This document shows positions 16,094 through 25,597 of a DNA stretch of 64,000 bases, piece after piece. Under the pieces are notes generated by a model. It ran no database searches. It saw only the letters and a list, made by a program, of their open reading frames with translations, and was not told the origin of the DNA. Source of the stretch: Candidatus Bathyarchaeota archaeon (GTDB lineage: Archaea > Thermoproteota > Bathyarchaeia > TCS64); the NCBI GenBank assembly GCA_018652685.1, contig JABIBQ010000028.1, positions 1 to 64,000 on the forward strand, written 5' to 3'. Both the position numbers and the translations under genes were made by a program. Position 1 is the stretch's first letter; the number at the start of each line of letters is the position of its first letter.

Positions 16094-16906
16094 CTACTCT
16101 AGGTTCGATACCAGCGCCTCCACCAGGTCCCTGATGGAGTGTTTCTCGGGGACTATGTTCACCTTGAATCCCAGAGCCTCTATCGCCCCCTTGGCCCTGG
16201 GTCCTATCGCGGCCACTATTGTCCTGCCTAAGCCCTCCTTGAGCTGCCCGAGCAGATTCTCCTGTTCCGCAATCTCTGCTAGGTTTGTTGCCGTTGACGC
16301 GCTGGTGAACGTCACTGCATCAACCTTGCCCGCCTCCAGGTCCCTGATGAGCTCGATAGCCCTGGACCTGTCAGCCGGTGGTCTGGATATGTAGGCTGTG
16401 ACCTCTGTGACCTGGGCTCCCCTCACCTTGAGGGCGTCGCCCAACTCGCTGTTGGCCATGCTTGACCTTGGGATTCCAATGTGGAGGCCCTTTAACTCGC
16501 CTCCGATGGCCTCCAGTACGCCATCGGTGCTCTGGATTCTCGCGACCACATTGTCAGTAACGCCGTAGCCGACTAGTTCTCTCTGGGTCCTCGTGCCGAT
16601 GACGAGCACCCCTGATGCGTTGATGCCCTTGAGGAGCAAGTCCAGCTTTCCTTCCTGCTGGGCCTCCTCGAAGATGCACCTGATGCTGTTTACGCTTAGA
16701 AAAACGAGTTTATCGAAGCAACCCGAGGCCGTTTTGCGGATGAACTCTGCAAGTTCTTCCCCCTTGGGTGCCGTGATCTCTATCATGGGGGCCACGTATG
16801 CCGTGCCGCCCATCGTTTCCACTATCTCCACCATCTCCTTGCACTGATGCATCGGCCTTGTAATGGCCACTGTCTTCCCTGCAAGGGGACCGGCGGAGCT
16901 ACTCAA
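16094..16906 (-). CDS. hemD: Uroporphyrinogen-III synthase
   Basis: AGKTVAITRP...FLSVNSIRCIFE...VTFTSASTATNL...AAIGPRAKGAIEALG. Confidence 0.87.
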   Translation of the reverse strand: MSSSAGPLAGKTVAITRPMHQCKEMVEIVETMGGTAYVAPMIEITAPKGEELAEFIRKTASGCFDKLVFLSVNSIRCIFEEAQQEGKLDLLLKGINASGVLVIGTRTQRELVGYGVTDNVVARIQSTDGVLEAIGGELKGLHIGIPRSSMANSELGDALKVRGAQVTEVTAYISRPPADRSRAIELIRDLEAGKVDAVTFTSASTATNLAEIAEQENLLGQLKEGLGRTIVAAIGPRAKGAIEALGFKVNIVPEKHSIRDLVEALVSNLE

Positions 16907-17648
16907 ACCAGCTGAGCTCCTCTCTGAGGTTCACGACCTCACCGATGATGGTGATGGCCGGCGGCTTGATGCCCGCATTGTAAGTCTTCTCGTGGATGTC
17001 AACGATGGTGCCCACAACTGTCTTTTGATCTGGAGTGGTTCCCTTCTCAATCACCGCCACGGGTGTTGACGGGTCCTTGCCTCCTTTCATGAGCTTGTCC
17101 ATGATGATGGGCATGTTTGTGATTCCCATGAGCACGACCAGCGTATCCACGTTCTTTGCAAGGCTCTCCCAGTCCACTGTGCCCTCCCTTTTAGAGGAAG
17201 CCTCGTGGCCCGTGATGAATGCAACTGATGATGCCATATGTCGCTGGGTCACCGGGATTCCCGCGTACGCGGGGACTGATATGGCCGAGGTGATGCCCGG
17301 GACTATCTCGAAATCGATTCCTGCTGCGTTGAGCACCTGGCCCTCCTCGCCACCCCTGCCGAACAGGAAGGGGTCACCGCCCTTGAGCCTTACAATGGTA
17401 CCCCCGTGCTGTGCCTTCTCCACCAGAAGCTTGTTTATCCTCTCCTGTGTGGCACTGGCCTCACCAGGGTGCTTTCCCACGTAGACCTTCTCGCATGTCT
17501 CGGGCACCAAGTTCAGTATTCCTTCAGTGACAAGCCTGTCATAGAGTAGCACATCGGCCTCGCATAGGAGCCGGTGGGCTTTTATCGTTATCAGTTCCGG
17601 GTCCCCGGGCCCTGATCCAACTAAGTATACTTTTCCTTTTGTCGTCAT
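16899..17648 (-). CDS. cobA: Uroporphyrinogen-III C-methyltransferase (SUMT)
   Basis: VYLVGSGPGDPELIT, LKGGDPFLFGRGGEE, VVPGITSAISVPAYAGIPVTQR. Confidence 0.94.
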   Translation of the reverse strand: MTTKGKVYLVGSGPGDPELITIKAHRLLCEADVLLYDRLVTEGILNLVPETCEKVYVGKHPGEASATQERINKLLVEKAQHGGTIVRLKGGDPFLFGRGGEEGQVLNAAGIDFEIVPGITSAISVPAYAGIPVTQRHMASSVAFITGHEASSKREGTVDWESLAKNVDTLVVLMGITNMPIIMDKLMKGGKDPSTPVAVIEKGTTPDQKTVVGTIVDIHEKTYNAGIKPPAITIIGEVVNLREELSWFE

Positions 17649-18568
17649 TCCTGCCACCTCTCGATGAGTTTGGCTCCTCCCAGGTCCAACATGTCCAGGG
17701 CCGCCTTGTGTCCGAATCCCTCGGGGTCATCGATTCCCCCTTTCTTCGTGTACTGGAAACGGACGCTTCCGTCTGGGGAAAGGACGCTCGCTAGGAGCTT
17801 CAGTCCCTCGTTGACCGTAACTATGACACCTACCGGTGTCTTGCATCCACCGCCCACGGTGGTCATGAACGCCCTCTCCGCAAGGGTGGCCGTCCACGCG
17901 TCGCTGTCTGTGATCTTTCCAAGTGTCTCGACGGCTTCCTTGTTGTCTGCCCTCGCTACGATGGCTAACGCCCCCTGGCACGCCGATGGGGTAAAGTCCT
18001 CCAACGTCAGCAGCTCGGTGATTACGTCTTCCTTTCCCATCCTGATGATGCCTGACTCGGCGAGTATGACGGCGTCGTACTCCCCGTCCCTCATCTTCTG
18101 GATCCTGGTGTCCACGTTGCCCCTGATGAGCTGGATGTCCAGATCTCCCCTCTTGAACAGGACCTGCGCTTTCCTCCTTGGGCTTGCGCTGCCGATTACC
18201 GCGCCCAGTGGCAGGTCAGCCAGGCTCTTGTACTTTATCGAGACAAGTGCGTCCCTCGGTGGCGCTCTTTCGGGTACCGCCGCGACCACCAGTCCCTCAG
18301 GTATCTCCATGGGCAGGTCCTTCATGCTGTGGACCGCAAAGGTCGCCTCTCCGCTGAGTACCACCTCGTCCACCGCTTTCGTGAATACGCCTTTCTCGTT
18401 GATTGCTGAGATTGCCCTGTCCCTGAATTTGTCACCTGAAGTGGTGATGACCAGGGTCTCGACCTGGACCTCCGGTGCCTTCTCGGCCAGGAGTTCCTTG
18501 ATTATGTCTACCTGTATTAGTGCTAGGGGGCTTCCCCTTGTCGCTGCGATTAGTTTCAATTCTGACAT
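17645..18568 (-). CDS. hemC: Hydroxymethylbilane synthase (porphobilinogen deaminase)
   Basis: ATRGSPLALIQ, VHSMKDLP, SPRRKAQ, RGNVDTRIQK, AFMTTVGGGCKTPVG. Start set at MSELKL. Confidence 0.95.
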   Translation of the reverse strand: MSELKLIAATRGSPLALIQVDIIKELLAEKAPEVQVETLVITTSGDKFRDRAISAINEKGVFTKAVDEVVLSGEATFAVHSMKDLPMEIPEGLVVAAVPERAPPRDALVSIKYKSLADLPLGAVIGSASPRRKAQVLFKRGDLDIQLIRGNVDTRIQKMRDGEYDAVILAESGIIRMGKEDVITELLTLEDFTPSACQGALAIVARADNKEAVETLGKITDSDAWTATLAERAFMTTVGGGCKTPVGVIVTVNEGLKLLASVLSPDGSVRFQYTKKGGIDDPEGFGHKAALDMLDLGGAKLIERWQE

Positions 18569-18569
18569 T

Positions 18570-19556
18570 CTACTCCTTGAGCCATTTGGCAGCGTCCTTT
18601 GCATGGTATGTGATGATCATCTCTGCACCCGCGCGCTTTATGGCGGTGAGAATCTCCAGTGCCCCCTTTTTCTCGTCGATCCAGCCGTTTGCGGCCGCTG
18701 CCTTCACCATGCTGAACTCACCGCTGACGTTGTAGGCCGCGGTTGGCATCCTGAACTCGCTGCGAACACTCTGAATCATGTCCAGGTACGCGAGTGCTGG
18801 TTTTACCATGATGATATCGGCACCCTCCTGGATGTCTAAAAGTGTCTCCCTGATGGCTTCCTCCTTGTTGGCAAAGTCCATCTGATACCCCCTCCTGTCA
18901 CCGAAGCTTGGTGCTGACTCCGCGGCGTCCCTGAAGGGTCCGTAAAAGTTTGATGACTGCTTGGCCGAGTACGCCATGATTGGGATGTTGCCGTAACCCG
19001 CCTCGTCAAGGGCTTGCCTGATTGCCCCGACCTGTCCGTCCATCATCCCTGATGGCGCGACCATGTCTACACCTGCCTTTGCGTATGATACCGCCACCCT
19101 TCCGTATAGCTCAAGGGTTATGTCGTTGAGTATCTCGCCGTTCTCGACGATGCCGCAGTGGCCGTGGCTCATGTACTCGCACAGGCACACGTCGCCTATA
19201 ACCATCAGGCTGTTCCCTAGGGCTTCCTTGATTGCCTTGATGGCGTTCTGGGTGATCCCGTTATCGTCAAGTGCTGAGGTTGCTACCTCGTCCTTGAGTT
19301 CCGGGATTCCGAACATCATGACTGCGGGGATTCCAAGCTCCTGGGCCTCCCTTGCCGCCTCTACGATGTCCTTGGGTGGGTACTGGTACTGGTCCGGCAT
19401 TGATCTGATCTCCTCTGGGGTGTCTATTCCCTCCTTGACGAAGAGTGGGTAGATGAAATCGTTGACACTCAGGGAGGTCTCCCTGACCATGTCCCTGAGT
19501 TTCTGGGTGGCTCTTAGCCGCCGCATCCTAAGTTCTGGGTACTGCATACAGGTCAC
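18570..19556 (-). CDS. hemB: Delta-aminolevulinate dehydratase
   Basis: VNDFIYPLFV, DVCLCEYMSHGHCGI, VAPSGMMDGQVGAIR, MAYSAKQSSNFYGPFRDAA, MVKPALAYLD. Confidence 0.96.
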   Translation of the reverse strand: MTCMQYPELRMRRLRATQKLRDMVRETSLSVNDFIYPLFVKEGIDTPEEIRSMPDQYQYPPKDIVEAAREAQELGIPAVMMFGIPELKDEVATSALDDNGITQNAIKAIKEALGNSLMVIGDVCLCEYMSHGHCGIVENGEILNDITLELYGRVAVSYAKAGVDMVAPSGMMDGQVGAIRQALDEAGYGNIPIMAYSAKQSSNFYGPFRDAAESAPSFGDRRGYQMDFANKEEAIRETLLDIQEGADIIMVKPALAYLDMIQSVRSEFRMPTAAYNVSGEFSMVKAAAANGWIDEKKGALEILTAIKRAGAEMIITYHAKDAAKWLKE

Positions 19557-19565
19557 TTTTTTCCT

Positions 19566-20234
19566 TTAATCATCACTGGATTGAACTTGACTGGCTTTCT
19601 CGATAATCGCCTCGGCGGCCGTCTTTGCTTCCCCGATTTTTCCCGATTCGAGTTTCATGTGGATACCCGGGTCGTTGAATATCTTGTACAACGTGTCCCT
19701 TCTGTCCGAGCTGTTGTTGATCTTTTTCTTGGCCAGCTCCCTCGCGTGGTGCTGGACCTCAAGGTTCAGGCTGTCCATCTCCGTTACCTGTGAGGAGAGC
19801 CTCTTCTTGAGAACCTTCGAGACAATGGGGCTCTTGCCGTCTGTACATATCCCCACCCTGATGCTTCCCCTATGGAAGACGGCAGGTGAGTAGAAATCGC
19901 AAATCTCGGGCATGTCAACCGCGCAGACCAGGACCCTTGACTCCCTCGCCAGCTTTGATACTAGCTGGTTCAGGGTGCGATCGTTTGTGGCTGCGAACAC
20001 CAGCTTTGAGTTCTTGATGTGAGTCCTCAGCGAAGTTGTTGCGTTTTCTAGCTTCTGCTCTACAAGAATTACCTTGCCCTGTTTTCCAAGATCGACCAGG
20101 GTAGGGGTGAAGGTCTCGCTTATGATGGTTACGTCGGCTTGGTGTTTGATGAGCGATTTTGCCTTTCGCTCACCCAACTTGCCGCCTCCTATCACAAGTG
20201 TCTTGCTTCCATCCATTCTTAGATCAATTAGCAC
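19566..20234 (-). CDS. Precorrin-2 dehydrogenase / siroheme synthase-like (SirC)
   Basis: LVIGGGKLGERKAKSLI, AATNDRTLNQ, SPAVFHRGSIRVGICTDGKSP. Confidence 0.9.
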   Translation of the reverse strand: MLIDLRMDGSKTLVIGGGKLGERKAKSLIKHQADVTIISETFTPTLVDLGKQGKVILVEQKLENATTSLRTHIKNSKLVFAATNDRTLNQLVSKLARESRVLVCAVDMPEICDFYSPAVFHRGSIRVGICTDGKSPIVSKVLKKRLSSQVTEMDSLNLEVQHHARELAKKKINNSSDRRDTLYKIFNDPGIHMKLESGKIGEAKTAAEAIIEKASQVQSSDD

Positions 20235-20470
20235 TTTTTTACCGCCAGTTTGTTTCCAATCTGTATTGTTTGATTAATCCAGCGGAAATCAGATATATAT
20301 CTTACGCTCAAAGCAAATTCTCCTCTCTTTTTCGCTGAAAATAGCAATTACAGTACTTATTTGTAATCATTTTCCCGTTTTGATCAATTTGGTTTATATT
20401 CTATCGACATCATGTACGTTTTGTCTTTTTTTTACCCTCTATCTTACCAACAAGGACATATTGAATCATT

Positions 20471-20540
20471 ATATATTGGAAATCAATATATAGGAGTGCG
20501 CCCATATATGGAATGGCGATATATTGGACTCCAACATATA
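20471..20540. promoter_or_regulatory. Three tandem palindromes upstream of ArsP-like gene
   Basis: ATATATTG-GAAAT-CAATATAT (20471-20491), CCATATATGG (20502-20511), TATATTGG-ACT-CCAACATA-type repeat (20520-20540). Confidence 0.6.
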
Positions 20541-20568
20541 CGAAACTGGAAGATATTTCCTCTTCATA

Positions 20569-21456
20569 ATGGCTGAGATCATACCCCTGTTCCTCGGCTC
20601 AACGTTCCTCATAGGGCTCTCAATGGAGTACCTCTCCGAGGAGTCCCTGCAAAACTCTCTTGGTGGAAAGAAAGGCATCCTCGGAATGATTTCCGCCGCC
20701 GTCTTCGGGTTCATAACCCCCTTCTGTAGCTGCAGCTCAATCCCGGTCCTGGCCGGGATGGTGGCTGCCGGTCTACCAATAGGTATTCTGACCACGTTCC
20801 TGATAGCGTCCCCATACCCCATCGAGGTCGCGCTGCTCATACTTGCCCCCATGTTCGGCTACAAGTTTGGGCTAGCGTTTGCCCTGGCCGGTACTATCAT
20901 AGCCCTGATGGCTGGATACTTCGTCCATACCCAGAAATGGGACGACCAGGTCAGGGAGGAGGCGACGCTGTTCGCCATCCCGACCGGGCCAGTTGAGGCA
21001 TCCTGCGGATGTGACGACGCTGAGGAGGTACTGGCTGATAGTTTCATCGTGAAGACGAAACGGGCGGCGATCTACTCGTTTGACTTCCTGAAGAAGCTGT
21101 TTCTGTTCGTGGTCCTTGGGGCCGGGGTAGGTGCGGTTATCCACGGGTCCCTGCCCGAGACCCTGCTGGCCACCTACTTGGGTGGTTCAAGCATCTACGC
21201 GGTGCCATTGGCTGCCCTGATAGGTGTGCCCCTTTACGTGGGCATCGTGCCGATGATCCCCATCGTGCTATCTCTCTCCACCAAGGGGGTTAGCATGGGT
21301 GCACTCATCGCGTTCCTCATCACGGCGGCCGCACTGAGCCCGCCCGAGATCATCATGCTCTCGGGGATGTTCAAGCACAAGTACATCGGCTTCTTCGTGG
21401 GGATGGTGATAGTCGGGGCGATAGTGACTGGCTATCTCTTCAACATACTGATCTAG
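20569..21456 (+). CDS. ArsP/UPF0718-like permease
   Basis: Multi-TM with TPFCSCSSIPVLAGM motif and cytosolic CGCDD. ORF track TTG start 20524 lies in operator; ATG at 20569 preferred. Confidence 0.78.
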   Translation: MAEIIPLFLGSTFLIGLSMEYLSEESLQNSLGGKKGILGMISAAVFGFITPFCSCSSIPVLAGMVAAGLPIGILTTFLIASPYPIEVALLILAPMFGYKFGLAFALAGTIIALMAGYFVHTQKWDDQVREEATLFAIPTGPVEASCGCDDAEEVLADSFIVKTKRAAIYSFDFLKKLFLFVVLGAGVGAVIHGSLPETLLATYLGGSSIYAVPLAALIGVPLYVGIVPMIPIVLSLSTKGVSMGALIAFLITAAALSPPEIIMLSGMFKHKYIGFFVGMVIVGAIVTGYLFNILI

Positions 21457-21461
21457 GAGAA

Positions 21462-21785
21462 ATGAAAATGAAAGTTGAACTAATATTGGAAAACCCCATG
21501 GCGGGGGGCTGCGGGTGTAGTGTATCAATGTCAGATAGGATGGCCCTGATGAAGCAGGTTAGGGAGCAGGCCCAGGTCTGGGAGAAGGTGAAGAAGGGCA
21601 ACAAGGGTCACGAGTACACAAGGAGCGTTTTGACTGATCAGGGTCCTGAACATGCCAAGGCTGCCCTTGAGGCCGGCTCTTTACTGCCCCTTGTCTTCCT
21701 GGACTCGGAGCTTGTCCACTCTGGAAGCTATCCGTCAGTGGGAGTATTCGTGGATTTGCTCAACGGGAGAGAGCAGAACACATAA
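21462..21785 (+). CDS. ArsD-like putative metallochaperone
   Basis: N-terminal GGCGCSVS; C-terminal LLPLVFLDSELVHSGSYPS typical of ArsD-like proteins. Confidence 0.55.
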   Translation: MKMKVELILENPMAGGCGCSVSMSDRMALMKQVREQAQVWEKVKKGNKGHEYTRSVLTDQGPEHAKAALEAGSLLPLVFLDSELVHSGSYPSVGVFVDLLNGREQNT

Positions 21786-21818
21786 GTCCCCTCCAATCCT
21801 CTTCCTATCGTTCTGGAG

Positions 21819-22187
21819 ATGCCCGTTTTGTCTAAAACCACGTACTGGGAGAAGAGCTTCATGCTGGGCCTGAGCAAGCTCATGGTGCTCAGCGTCCTGA
21901 GGAACGGCCCCGTTCACGGGTACGGTATAATCAAGGAGATCGAGACCAAGAGCAACCAGTGCTGCAGCATCACGCCTGGCAGCATCTACCCGCTCCTGCG
22001 CGACCTTGAGAAGGAGGAGCTCATCGTGAGCCACAAGTCAAAGGTGGGCGGCCGTGACAGGGTCAATTACGAGCTGACTGATGCCGGACGTGAGACCCTG
22101 AAAGAAGCATTGAGAATGTGGGAAATATTCCTCGATGGGACCCGGAACATCTTCTACGACGATGATGCCCCCGAGGTCGAAGCCTAA
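21819..22187 (+). CDS. PadR family transcriptional regulator with vicinal Cys pair
   Basis: VLSVLRNGPVHGYGIIKEIETKSNQCCSITPGSIYPLLRDLEKEELI. Confidence 0.88.
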   Translation: MPVLSKTTYWEKSFMLGLSKLMVLSVLRNGPVHGYGIIKEIETKSNQCCSITPGSIYPLLRDLEKEELIVSHKSKVGGRDRVNYELTDAGRETLKEALRMWEIFLDGTRNIFYDDDAPEVEA

Positions 22188-23057
22188 CTAGCTCTTTATC
22201 CTCTTCATATCGACCTCGGCTGACAGGTAGCCGAAGCCACTCCATGCGTTTGTCTCAAGCACTTTTTCCAGCAACCCAACGTAGTTGTCATACTCCCCCC
22301 TGAACCTGTACTCGTTGGCCACGCCGAACCCTGAGGTTACCAGGCTGAGCTGATCCTCGTCGCCCTTGCCACTGATTATGTCCTCTGGCTCAATCTCGCC
22401 CTTGTACATCTTCATGCACTCGTAGTACCCGCCGCTGACGGGGCAGTTCATGTCCGACTTGACGTGGCTGAGGACCTCTTTCACTTCCTCCTCGAAGCCT
22501 AGCCTCTTGAGAATGATATAGTTCCAGTAGACAGACATGATAACGTGGTCGTCGTTGACGGCTATTGCGAGGAGATCATGGAATGCCTTGCTAGCGTTGA
22601 TTGGGTCGCCCTTCATCATGTACGCGAGGCCCAGGTGGTAGTACACATTGGTGTAGAAGGTGTACTCAATGGTCTCCTCCGCGCCTGCCAGGCCACTGGG
22701 CTCCATGAAGTCAGGCTTCTTTAGCATGATGTCAGCCGCCCTCTCCGAGTCTGCGATGGAGTACTCGAACATCCTGAGGCTCAGGAACCTGTGTGCCCTG
22801 TGCCTGAGGAATTCTGGGTCGTCTGGGAACAGTTTCAGTCCCTCGGTGAAGATGTGTATGGCGTCCCTATACCTGCCGACATAGGCGTGCTGCCTGCCTA
22901 GCCAGAGTATCTTCTCCCTGTCGTCGGGGTCTTTCTCCCACTCGGCGAACGCCTTGTTGAACTTGACTAGCTGCTTGTGCTCGGGATCAGGGTAGCTCAC
23001 CGGGTTGTACAGTGGCTCGCCGAATAGGCTGAACCCTTCTGGGGTCTCGATCTTCAT
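22188..23057 (-). CDS. Tetratricopeptide-repeat-like protein
   Basis: Helical repeats (HAYVGRYRDAIHIFTEGLKLFPDDPEFLRHRAHRFLSLRMFEYSIADSERA). Confidence 0.75.
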   Translation of the reverse strand: MKIETPEGFSLFGEPLYNPVSYPDPEHKQLVKFNKAFAEWEKDPDDREKILWLGRQHAYVGRYRDAIHIFTEGLKLFPDDPEFLRHRAHRFLSLRMFEYSIADSERAADIMLKKPDFMEPSGLAGAEETIEYTFYTNVYYHLGLAYMMKGDPINASKAFHDLLAIAVNDDHVIMSVYWNYIILKRLGFEEEVKEVLSHVKSDMNCPVSGGYYECMKMYKGEIEPEDIISGKGDEDQLSLVTSGFGVANEYRFRGEYDNYVGLLEKVLETNAWSGFGYLSAEVDMKRIKS

Positions 23058-23122
23058 GACTCAAGCTGAGCCGGTATCGTATATGAAATCTGTCCTACGG
23101 TCACATTATGTGAGTATGAGAC

Positions 23123-24403
23123 GTGATTCAGCCTTTTATTGAAGAACATGAAACTCAGTTCATCAACGGGTGTGTGAAAATGATCGACTTGTCAACGTAT
23201 ATCCCCCAGCGCATCTCGACACCCGCCAGACGCTTCCTTTCAGCAACCGCCCTAAGCGGCCTCGGGAACGGGGTCTTCAGCGTCATCCTCCAACTTTACC
23301 TCATATCCCTTGGTTTTTCCGGTTCCCAGCTGGGAAGTATATTCATGTGGAGCAGTATCGGCCAACTTTTCCTTACAATCCCAGCCGGCGTGCTGGCTGA
23401 TAGATACGGCGTGAAGCCTGTCATTCTGTTCGGTTTCATCGTCACCGGTATATCCATGGGGATTATGCTCACGGGCAGGACACTGTTCATGTTCAGCGTC
23501 GCCTGGCTACTCCTGGGCGTGGGCAACTCTACCGGCTCCGTATTCGGTCCATTATTTTCCTCATTGTTCGATCCTGATGATCTTGCCAGGGCATTCGGGC
23601 TCCAGGGGGGCATAAATATCGCGTCAACCGCGATTGGAAGCCTGTTCGGGTTGATCCCGCCCCTCCTCGTATCGCGGGCTGGGTTCACGTTGACCAGGTC
23701 CTACTGGTCGATGCTCCTGATTGGTGTTGTTTTCTTCGTAGTGCAGCTTCCGATGTACTACAGTGTCCTGACTTTAGCTGATATCAAAAAGCCTGAAGAG
23801 AAAAAGAGCCGTATCCTTCGTTCACGTGGTGTTGTGGTAAAGTTCTCGATTCTCTACACGATACAGAACCTGGCGTACGGCGCGTTTATCGGGTTATTCC
23901 CGTTCTACGTGAACAAAAAGTACGGGGTAGAGTCCGGTGCCCTCGGAGTTCTCTTTTTCGCCGTGCAGCTAATCAGGGCAGTTGTGAACTTTGGCTCCCC
24001 CAAGATCGCGGACAGGTACGGTTCGGTACGTACCATCACGGCGTCCATTGCTGGAACAGTTCCCTTCTGGCTCCTGTTCACCTGGGCTCCCTCATTTGCC
24101 TGGGTCTCATTGATCTACATTGCACGGATGGCCGTAGCGTCCATCAGCAACCCCTTGATGCCCTCACTCTTCTACCGCATACTATACGAGGACGAGAAGG
24201 CCACCGCCAACTCAATCACCCAGACATCGTCCATGGTCAGTAACATCATTGCCCCGAGACTAGGCGGGCACATGATGGAGAATATCCACTTGGAATCCAC
24301 CGCCGTCATGGGGGCGGGGCTGTATGCACTTTACTCAGCGTCCGTCTACCTGCTGTTGAGGAACGAGAAACCGAAAAATGGCACTGAGGTGCCGTTGGAT
24401 TAG
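23123..24403 (+). CDS. MFS transporter
   Basis: 12-TM-like pattern; GVLADRYGVKPV motif A-like; start may be the Met near 23180. Confidence 0.82.
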   Translation: MIQPFIEEHETQFINGCVKMIDLSTYIPQRISTPARRFLSATALSGLGNGVFSVILQLYLISLGFSGSQLGSIFMWSSIGQLFLTIPAGVLADRYGVKPVILFGFIVTGISMGIMLTGRTLFMFSVAWLLLGVGNSTGSVFGPLFSSLFDPDDLARAFGLQGGINIASTAIGSLFGLIPPLLVSRAGFTLTRSYWSMLLIGVVFFVVQLPMYYSVLTLADIKKPEEKKSRILRSRGVVVKFSILYTIQNLAYGAFIGLFPFYVNKKYGVESGALGVLFFAVQLIRAVVNFGSPKIADRYGSVRTITASIAGTVPFWLLFTWAPSFAWVSLIYIARMAVASISNPLMPSLFYRILYEDEKATANSITQTSSMVSNIIAPRLGGHMMENIHLESTAVMGAGLYALYSASVYLLLRNEKPKNGTEVPLD

Positions 24404-24421
24404 AAACTTTATACAGATTAC

Positions 24422-25597
24422 GTGCTTCCATTATCCATGTCATCAGACGATTACTTCAACTTGGCCTCCGTCGAGGGAATGGCCAACTCACTGAACCGAA
24501 AATGGCAGGTCTATCCCAATGACGTTATCCCCCTCTGGCTGGCGAGTCCCGACTTTAGGATAGCTCCGGAGATCAAGGAGGCACTACACCATGCGGTGGA
24601 TGCCGAGGACCTCTACTACAACTCGGATGACCCGACCCGCGAGGCCATGGCCGAGAAGATCGTGCGCGTCAACGGCCAGGAGGTAACATCTGACGATGTC
24701 ATGATCTCCCAGGGCGTCGAGCCACTTCTCTGGCTTGCCGTCATGCACGCGTGCAAGGAGGGTGACGAGGTGGTGATGCCCAACCCCATGTACAACGGCT
24801 TCGTCCACGTCATGGAGGGTCTGAATACCAAGCCAGTCTACTGGGACCTTGACTACGAAGACGGCTACAGGTTCGACGAGGAGCGGCTCAAGGAGATAGT
24901 CAACAAGGACACCAAGCTACTGTGCCTCTGCAACCCCCACAACCCGGCGGGGAGGGTTATGACAAGGGAGGAGTTGAAGGCAGTGGCTGATATCGCTGTT
25001 GACAATCAGATCAAGGTCTTCATGGACGAGCTCTGGGAGGACATCAGGTTCGATGGGAGGGAGCAGGTGACGCTTGCCACGTTGAACCCCGAGATAGAGG
25101 ACTTGACGGCCACATCCTGGGGCGTGTCTAAGACATTCGGTGTCGCGGGGCTCTACCTCGGCTACATGGCCACCACAAACAAGGAGATGCTGGCCGATTT
25201 CAAGCATGAGGCACACAGCCTCCAGCGTGGCTCCAGCACCCTGGCGAGGGCGGCCGCCCCCGTCATGCTGGATGAGACCCTTGACTGGTACAGGAGGGAC
25301 CTGATCACGCAACTGACCAAGGTTCGTGACATCTGCTACAAGCGCCTGAACGAGATATCGGGAGCGTCTTTCCCTGTCGTTGAGGGCACATACGTGCCGT
25401 TCCCCAAGTTTGATTACGGGATGACCAGCGAGGAGCTCCACGAGTACCTTATAAAGGAGGCCAAGGTCGCCCTGAACCCCGGATCGAACTTCGGGCCAGG
25501 CGGCGAAGGCCACATGAGGATCTGCTTCGCCACAAGCGAGGAGATAATGAACGAAACAATGGACAGGATGGAGCGGGCTCTCTCAAAGCTAGCCTAG
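24422..25597 (+). CDS. PLP-dependent aminotransferase class I/II (PatB/MalY- or AspAT-like)
   Basis: NPHNPAGRVMTREEL, SWGVSKTFGVAGLYLGY (PLP Lys). Confidence 0.88.
   Translation: MLPLSMSSDDYFNLASVEGMANSLNRKWQVYPNDVIPLWLASPDFRIAPEIKEALHHAVDAEDLYYNSDDPTREAMAEKIVRVNGQEVTSDDVMISQGVEPLLWLAVMHACKEGDEVVMPNPMYNGFVHVMEGLNTKPVYWDLDYEDGYRFDEERLKEIVNKDTKLLCLCNPHNPAGRVMTREELKAVADIAVDNQIKVFMDELWEDIRFDGREQVTLATLNPEIEDLTATSWGVSKTFGVAGLYLGYMATTNKEMLADFKHEAHSLQRGSSTLARAAAPVMLDETLDWYRRDLITQLTKVRDICYKRLNEISGASFPVVEGTYVPFPKFDYGMTSEELHEYLIKEAKVALNPGSNFGPGGEGHMRICFATSEEIMNETMDRMERALSKLA

Follow-up and report, generated by a model that had tools for sequence, protein, structure and literature searches.

A putative dithiol PadR repressor takes the place of ArsR at a candidate arsenic efflux operon of a Bathyarchaeota genome

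To our knowledge, the sensing of arsenic in prokaryotes has almost always been attributed to proteins of the ArsR/SmtB family. Regulated arsenic efflux is already known; what is new at the locus described here is the family of the regulator, its candidate sensor site and its candidate operator. In the literature searched we found no report linking a PadR protein to arsP, arsM or arsenite sensing, which is no proof that none exists. Among permeases of family PF03773, ArsP of Campylobacter jejuni is an exporter of methylarsenite, MAs(III), and of trivalent roxarsone that does not act on arsenite (PMC6205960). Another member, SO_0444, is required for tolerance of copper and zinc (PMC3219624), and a pump of the SO_0444 family is induced by cadmium and copper (PMC10092412). 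The chaperone function of ArsD needs Cys12, Cys13 and Cys18 (PMC4562236).

The stretch of DNA that was analysed, hereafter the window, is 64,000 nucleotides long and belongs to a draft genome of 2.38 Mb in 99 contigs (94.9% complete, 8.7% contamination). Three genes of its + strand, between positions 20524 and 22187, encode a PF03773 permease, an ArsD-like protein and a PadR-family regulator; 5 bp separate the first two and 33 bp the last two. Alignment with homologues favours a TTG start at 20524 for the permease, the alternative being an ATG at 20569. The features of the locus are the following.

20456 to 20476, unstranded: weaker operator-like copy, overlapping, two mismatches, 15 bp ahead of the primary site
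20470 to 20492, unstranded: primary candidate operator, TATATATTG-GAAAT-CAATATATA, a perfect 9-5-9 palindrome upstream of the permease that overlaps a TATA-like element
20504 to 20524, unstranded: weaker operator-like copy, overlapping, two mismatches, 15 bp ahead of the second site
20518 to 20540, unstranded: second candidate operator, GATATATTGGACTCCAACATATA, which lies 48 bp further downstream and overlaps the proposed TTG start; one mismatch to the core
20524 to 21456, + strand: PF03773 (ArsP_1) permease of 310 aa, with PFCSCS at 20719-20736 and a loop CGC at 21004-21012
21462 to 21785, + strand: ArsD-like small protein of 107 aa with a predicted thioredoxin fold, C-G-C at 21510-21518 (CC in relatives)
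21819 to 22187, + strand: PadR-family winged-helix regulator of 122 aa, in which a vicinal pair, Cys48-Cys49 (21960-21965), immediately precedes the predicted recognition helix

The original prediction was that of an arsenic module controlled by a PadR protein. The genes and motifs that it listed all lie where it placed them (the motifs within ITPFCSCSSIP, SCGCDD, GGCGCSVS and SNQCCSITPG), and its core survives: the regulator that accompanies the arsenic-type efflux genes is not ArsR but a PadR whose vicinal cysteine pair is conserved, no ArsR gene being seen within 19566-25597. Its idea of a relay through shared C-G-C motifs does not survive, for reasons given below. It did not mention the palindrome at 20470-20492, although its coordinates began there, at 20471. 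Just upstream of the operon, positions 16899-20234 of the minus strand hold tetrapyrrole (siroheme/heme precursor) genes, of which the first is precorrin-2 dehydrogenase-like (20234) and the last uroporphyrinogen methyltransferase-like (16899).

The reading that we favour, with a probability of roughly two in three, is that of a self-regulating arsenic efflux operon under a dithiol PadR repressor that would be released by a trivalent arsenical, possibly methylarsenite. A PadR dimer seated on the promoter palindrome, or palindromes, would repress the permease, ArsD-like and padR genes together; a thiol-reactive trivalent arsenical would bridge Cys48 and Cys49, which border the predicted recognition helix on its N-terminal side; the arsenical-bound protein would leave the DNA and the operon would be transcribed. 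The ArsD-like protein would then hold the arsenical between two cysteines and might hand it over to the PFCSCS permease, the predicted exporter. Methylarsenite would be a likelier inducer than arsenite because each candidate site gives two thiols, not three. Support for this circuit comes from gene order, protein families, conservation of the cysteine pair, the position and genome-wide specificity of the candidate operator, the arsenic neighbours of relatives, and the presence of arsM in the genome.

A scan of 84,980 species genomes for relatives of the permease gave two close ones, in a Nezhaarchaeota MAG (55% identity) and a Bathyarchaeota MAG (54%). Both have the order permease, ArsD-like protein, PadR, so that the synteny seen in the window recurs in another family and in another class; identity to the window proteins is 50% and 47% for the PadRs, respectively, and about 30% for the ArsD-like proteins. 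In the phylum, a profile search gave six genomes of a further family (f29) in which PadR comes first, followed by a cysteine-rich protein of 72-74 aa (N-terminal CC, two CxxC, C-terminal CC or CGCC) and a PF03773 permease, which makes nine archaeal modules, three of the first kind and six of the second. The trio was not found in any of the seven same-genus genomes searched; its distribution is therefore patchy. This last point speaks for permease, small protein and PadR being chance neighbours that form no functional unit, a view that we find scarcely credible and have discarded: the same trio recurs in another family and another class, with gaps of 5-33 bp in the window, a third archaeal family as well as Cupriavidus also pair PadR with PF03773, and the candidate operator is specific to the module.

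Different modules put extra cysteine-rich parts in different genes. A small zinc-ribbon-like frame ending in GGCCS or GGCCG lies between the ArsD-like and PadR genes of the Nezhaarchaeota and Bathyarchaeota MAGs. More generally, related modules encode small proteins of zinc-ribbon-like type that end in a GGCC/CGCC tail (L063:6291-6458, L064:6283-6449, L070:1239-1457); the window is without them, and the CCAxRIE repeat protein of the Cupriavidus module, described below, is related to them. As for the cytosolic CGC loop of the permease, which had been proposed as part of the relay, it is present in the window and absent from the module permeases of the Nezhaarchaeota and Bathyarchaeota MAGs and of f29; some relatives have a separate cysteine-rich small protein instead. 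Because the loop is not kept in relatives, we have dropped the relay. In another genome, G061, a permease of the same clade adjoins an HxlR-family regulator that contains an FCC pair (L004:1049-1408); this looks like a swap of regulator with thiols retained, the permease gene being partly masked.

The regulator passes the PadR model PF03551 (E 2.8e-21, 75.7 bits against a gathering threshold of 27), shows the order of elements of a winged helix, and matches 49 PDB sequences, most of them named PadR-like. In 9/9 archaeal module PadRs a Cys-Cys pair stands directly before the GxIYP helix, a position mostly held by Phe-Trp in the other PadRs of these archaea, none of which, among those compared, has CC; a chance pair of cysteines is thereby ruled out. 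The pair, on whose conservation the original prediction had staked itself beforehand, is kept without exception in the module PadRs found, whether of archaea or of bacteria. A single-sequence model of low confidence (pLDDT 53), used for helix order only, puts it just before helix 53-65, at the position of the PadR recognition helix. Grouping all CC-PadRs as one clade is not rejected (p-AU 0.45), in a tree with too few columns for proof.

Vicinal Cys-Cys disulfides are strained, and they are uncommon redox switches. This counts against a reading that we hold to be improbable, in which oxidative or electrophile stress would turn the pair into a disulfide, and a thiol-toxic compound would be what the operon exports. 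Vicinal cysteines can be oxidized, and single winged-helix regulators of archaea can be thiol redox sensors, as exemplified by the TrmB family in Haloferax (PMC9426492); the operon partners of the PadR, however, resemble metalloid handling and not redox enzymes, and arsenic neighbourhoods are common to the relatives.

What the PadR would bind is suggested by a palindrome, NATATATWG-N5-CWATATATN, found before the permease operon, which we take as its candidate operator. The pattern ATATATWG-N5-CWATATAT was run on the nine module genomes and on the genome of G061 as a control. Sites with at most one mismatch occur, genome-wide, only at the module in each of the nine (two in the window genome, one in each of the others), a specificity to be read with the caveat that the operator is AT-rich and overlaps a TATA-like sequence; the control genome has none at this level. 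The pattern itself was drawn after several of the same loci had been viewed, and the genome-wide uniqueness was not so derived. Within the window, five matches to the core with up to three mismatches were observed for 0.23 expected, four of them inside the 84-bp candidate operator region, and the primary palindrome has no mismatch to the core (shuffle p 0.0045); the palindrome is imperfect in four of the nine archaeal loci. The site is found before the permease operon both where padR comes last (the window, the Nezhaarchaeota and Bathyarchaeota MAGs) and where padR comes first, with the promoter behind it (f29). It stays ahead of the permease operon whichever side padR takes, and therefore tracks the pump, not the regulator gene. 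In f29 genomes (L133, L137, L138), a palindrome of related type, ATATATCG-N5-AAATATAT or close to it, stands before a different PadR, of FW or YW type; it is shared by several of these genomes and is probably that PadR's own operator.

The permease passes the ArsP_1 model PF03773 with ease (E 2.6e-49, 168.4 bits against a gathering threshold of 32.3). The claim that it bears an ArsP-type motif holds in a restricted form. Nearly every sampled member of PF03773 has CSC, which alone is therefore no mark of ArsP. The longer PFCSCS delineates one clade of 22 sequences (support 100/99), in a tree sampled by similarity to the window from which C. jejuni ArsP itself was left out; this clade holds the module permeases together with permeases of annotated ars regions, apart from paralogues with VCSCT. 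The module permeases together with G061 could form one clade (p-AU 0.10), whereas a clade of them without G061 is rejected (2.5e-9). A single pairing with PadR, followed by a swap to HxlR in G061, fits these tests; the case for it is a weak one because long branches are involved.

Neighbourhoods were inspected for 13 of the best 20 plasmid relatives of the permease (33-35% identity). ArsR is adjacent or one gene off in 11/13, and ACR3, ArsA, ArsC, ArsJ or an arsenite methyltransferase (ArsM) lies within a few kb in 7/13; a few are also near cation diffusion facilitators or P-type ATPases. In Natrinema, a PF03773 permease adjoins arsM. The PadR protein Rv3488 is said to bind cadmium, and many soft metals are bound by vicinal cysteines. 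CC-PadR and permease might act on Cu(I), Zn(II), Cd(II) or Hg(II) and not on arsenic, in the manner of the SO_0444 branch of PF03773, with its role under copper and zinc stress (PMC3219624) and its induction by cadmium and copper (PMC10092412). The permease does score similarly on the SO_0444 (NF033936) and SaoE (NF040736) models, but far under both cut-offs: 98.6 bits against 300 for the first and 84.8 against 325 for the second. With the nearest annotated relatives mostly found in company of ArsR and arsenic genes, an ArsD-like partner in the operon, and ArsK- and ArsO-like genes beside a CC-PadR in Roseomonas, we regard handling of soft metals as unlikely. On the reading that we prefer, arsenic efflux, an organoarsenical is plausible as the substrate, rather than inorganic arsenic.

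The second gene requires a more careful label. Its product falls under every Pfam threshold, and its sole Pfam match is ArsD, PF06953 (E 0.038). Three homologues match the same model (E 0.003-0.021); the scores on it, 14.7-18.1 bits, miss the gathering threshold of 27. Its sequence matches in the PDB are only the three solved ArsDs (E 0.04-0.2), and its model (pLDDT 85) has a thioredoxin fold, for which ArsD 3kgk comes third in the PDB (E 2.7e-3, TM about 0.5). Instead of the three N-terminal cysteines of ArsD (Cys12, 13, 18), the window protein and its three homologues have two. There is no arsA beside the gene, and a full-length ArsA homologue sits on another contig (C47). Fold and weak similarity thus uphold the name ArsD-like; threshold, third cysteine and arsA neighbour all being missed, membership in the ArsD family was rejected. 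In two genomes of the same family as the window, a homologue shares its operon with two genes, one thioredoxin-like and one for a PF03773 permease of the other clade, with ArsR divergent upstream in one of the two.

These observations bear on a variant of the favoured reading, in which the same circuit would sense and pump As(III) or Sb(III), not methylated arsenic. In its favour, the small protein is related to ArsD, a carrier of As(III); ACR3 and ArsC adjoin several of the permease's relatives; and an ArsK-like pump is part of the Roseomonas operon. We nevertheless hold this variant to be rather unlikely, if less so than soft metals: arsenite is not exported by C. jejuni ArsP, unlike MAs(III) and trivalent roxarsone (PMC6205960), the ArsD-like site lacks the third of the cysteines that ArsD needs (PMC4562236), the genome already has ACR3, as well as arsM, whose product is methylated arsenic, and the Natrinema permease is next to arsM. 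A site with two cysteines would be well matched to a ligand of coordination number two, for instance methylarsenite. Counting against arsenic efflux of either kind, there is no dedicated arsenic gene (ACR3, ArsC or ArsM) inside the archaeal module operons; in the Bathyarchaeota MAG an ArsR-ACR3 pair lies about 5 kb from the module.

PadRs of this kind also occur in bacteria. When plasmids were compared with the window PadR, the two best kinds of match, from Cupriavidus and Roseomonas, had the CC pair, which is not present in six other bacterial PadRs drawn from the match lists. On pRK1-4 of Cupriavidus basilensis, a CC-PadR 44% identical to that of the window comes immediately before a PF03773 permease; a small protein is encoded next, and its three CCAxRIE repeats resemble the N-terminus of the cysteine-rich protein of f29. 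On plasmids of Roseomonas mucosa, a CC-PadR 40% identical to it precedes two genes, one for a cysteine-rich flavoprotein with a weak resemblance to ArsO (40.7 bits, cut-off 425), the other for an MFS pump that resembles ArsK (242 bits, cut-off 400). That operon (L215:3959-7129, also L221) has insertion sequences on its flanks, and the flavoprotein is rich in CC pairs. Palindromes are present here as well. Upstream of one bacterial CC-PadR operon, a -10-like box, TATAGT, comes right after a perfect 8-5-8 palindrome, ATACCTTG-ATGGA-CAAGGTAT (shuffle p 0.0035); upstream of the other is a perfect 6-5-6 palindrome, GCATCG-CCCAT-CGATGC (p 0.008). Their arms differ from those of the archaeal candidate operators and the 5-bp gap is the same, the bacterial operons not having been used for the motif. 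The ArsD-like protein has no match in the plasmid collection. PadRs of Escherichia coli and Klebsiella plasmids were not kept as relatives of the system, the single one inspected adjoining chrA and having no CC.

Elsewhere in the window genome, besides ACR3 and a second PF03773 permease, a paralogue associated with ArsR, there is an arsM gene that scores over the NCBIfam cut-off. It had appeared broken, with one TGA and one TAG within the match; the match only ran beyond the natural stop on the reading frame, and the gene is therefore intact. This arsM is divergent from a second PadR (PF03551, 58 bits; contig C57, L204:1058-2292), whose N-terminus, APCCPPSCCDMRG, carries a CCPPSCC cluster, and one f29 genome (L203) has the same arrangement, with DCCPEMPCCCDMRG (CCPEMPCCC) at the N-terminus of its PadR. 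As the arrangement is known from two genomes, we take it as a lead and do not generalize from it. A palindrome, TTGGATATCCAA, lies just before arsM in the window genome. A PadR near arsM in Natrinema, considered as a further case, has no cysteines and was left uncounted. The arsM-linked PadRs are without CC before the recognition helix, and would therefore be a separate invention.

Tentatively, then, and with somewhat less than even confidence, we propose that PadR proteins were recruited at least twice as dithiol or polythiol sensors of arsenic: once as a family crossing domains, with CC at the recognition helix, controlling efflux of the arsP/arsK type through an N5-spaced palindrome, and once as a CCPPSCC-like type divergent from arsM. 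If this were true, the two PadR types would make up, in one archaeal genome, a methylate-and-export circuit independent of ArsR, in which ArsM would make methylarsenite and ArsP expel it. The PadR branch shared by archaea and proteobacterial plasmids would then be a separate evolutionary solution to the sensing of metalloids. With reference to applications, the CC-PadR would be useful for biosensors, and would aid annotation of arsenic systems in uncultured archaea that have no ArsR beside their pumps.

Set against known systems, the locus resembles ars operons controlled by ArsR/SmtB in that its regulator probably represses its own gene along with those for arsenic efflux and a chaperone, and in a putative thiol sensing site; it differs in that the regulator belongs to another winged-helix family, with another candidate operator, and the genome keeps, moreover, its ArsR-controlled PF03773 paralogue. 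With C. jejuni ArsP and the PF03773 permeases of ars operons, it shares the permease family, the PFCSCS motif and the position of the gene beside that of a thiol-bearing regulator, and the nearest annotated relatives of its permease are in ars clusters; here, by contrast, the regulator is a PadR and not an ArsR, the substrate is a predicted one, and identity to the plasmid relatives is 33-35%. Like ArsD (PF06953), the small protein has a thioredoxin fold, an N-terminal cysteine site after DP/NP and weak but consistent sequence matches; unlike it, it has two cysteines and not three, stays below the Pfam threshold and belongs to an operon without ArsA. As to the PadR repressors themselves (PF03551; LmrR, PadR, Rv3488), the window protein is alike in its winged helix and long C-terminal helix, with a candidate palindromic operator beside an efflux gene, but has Cys-Cys where Phe-Trp is usual, and its candidate ligand is a metalloid.
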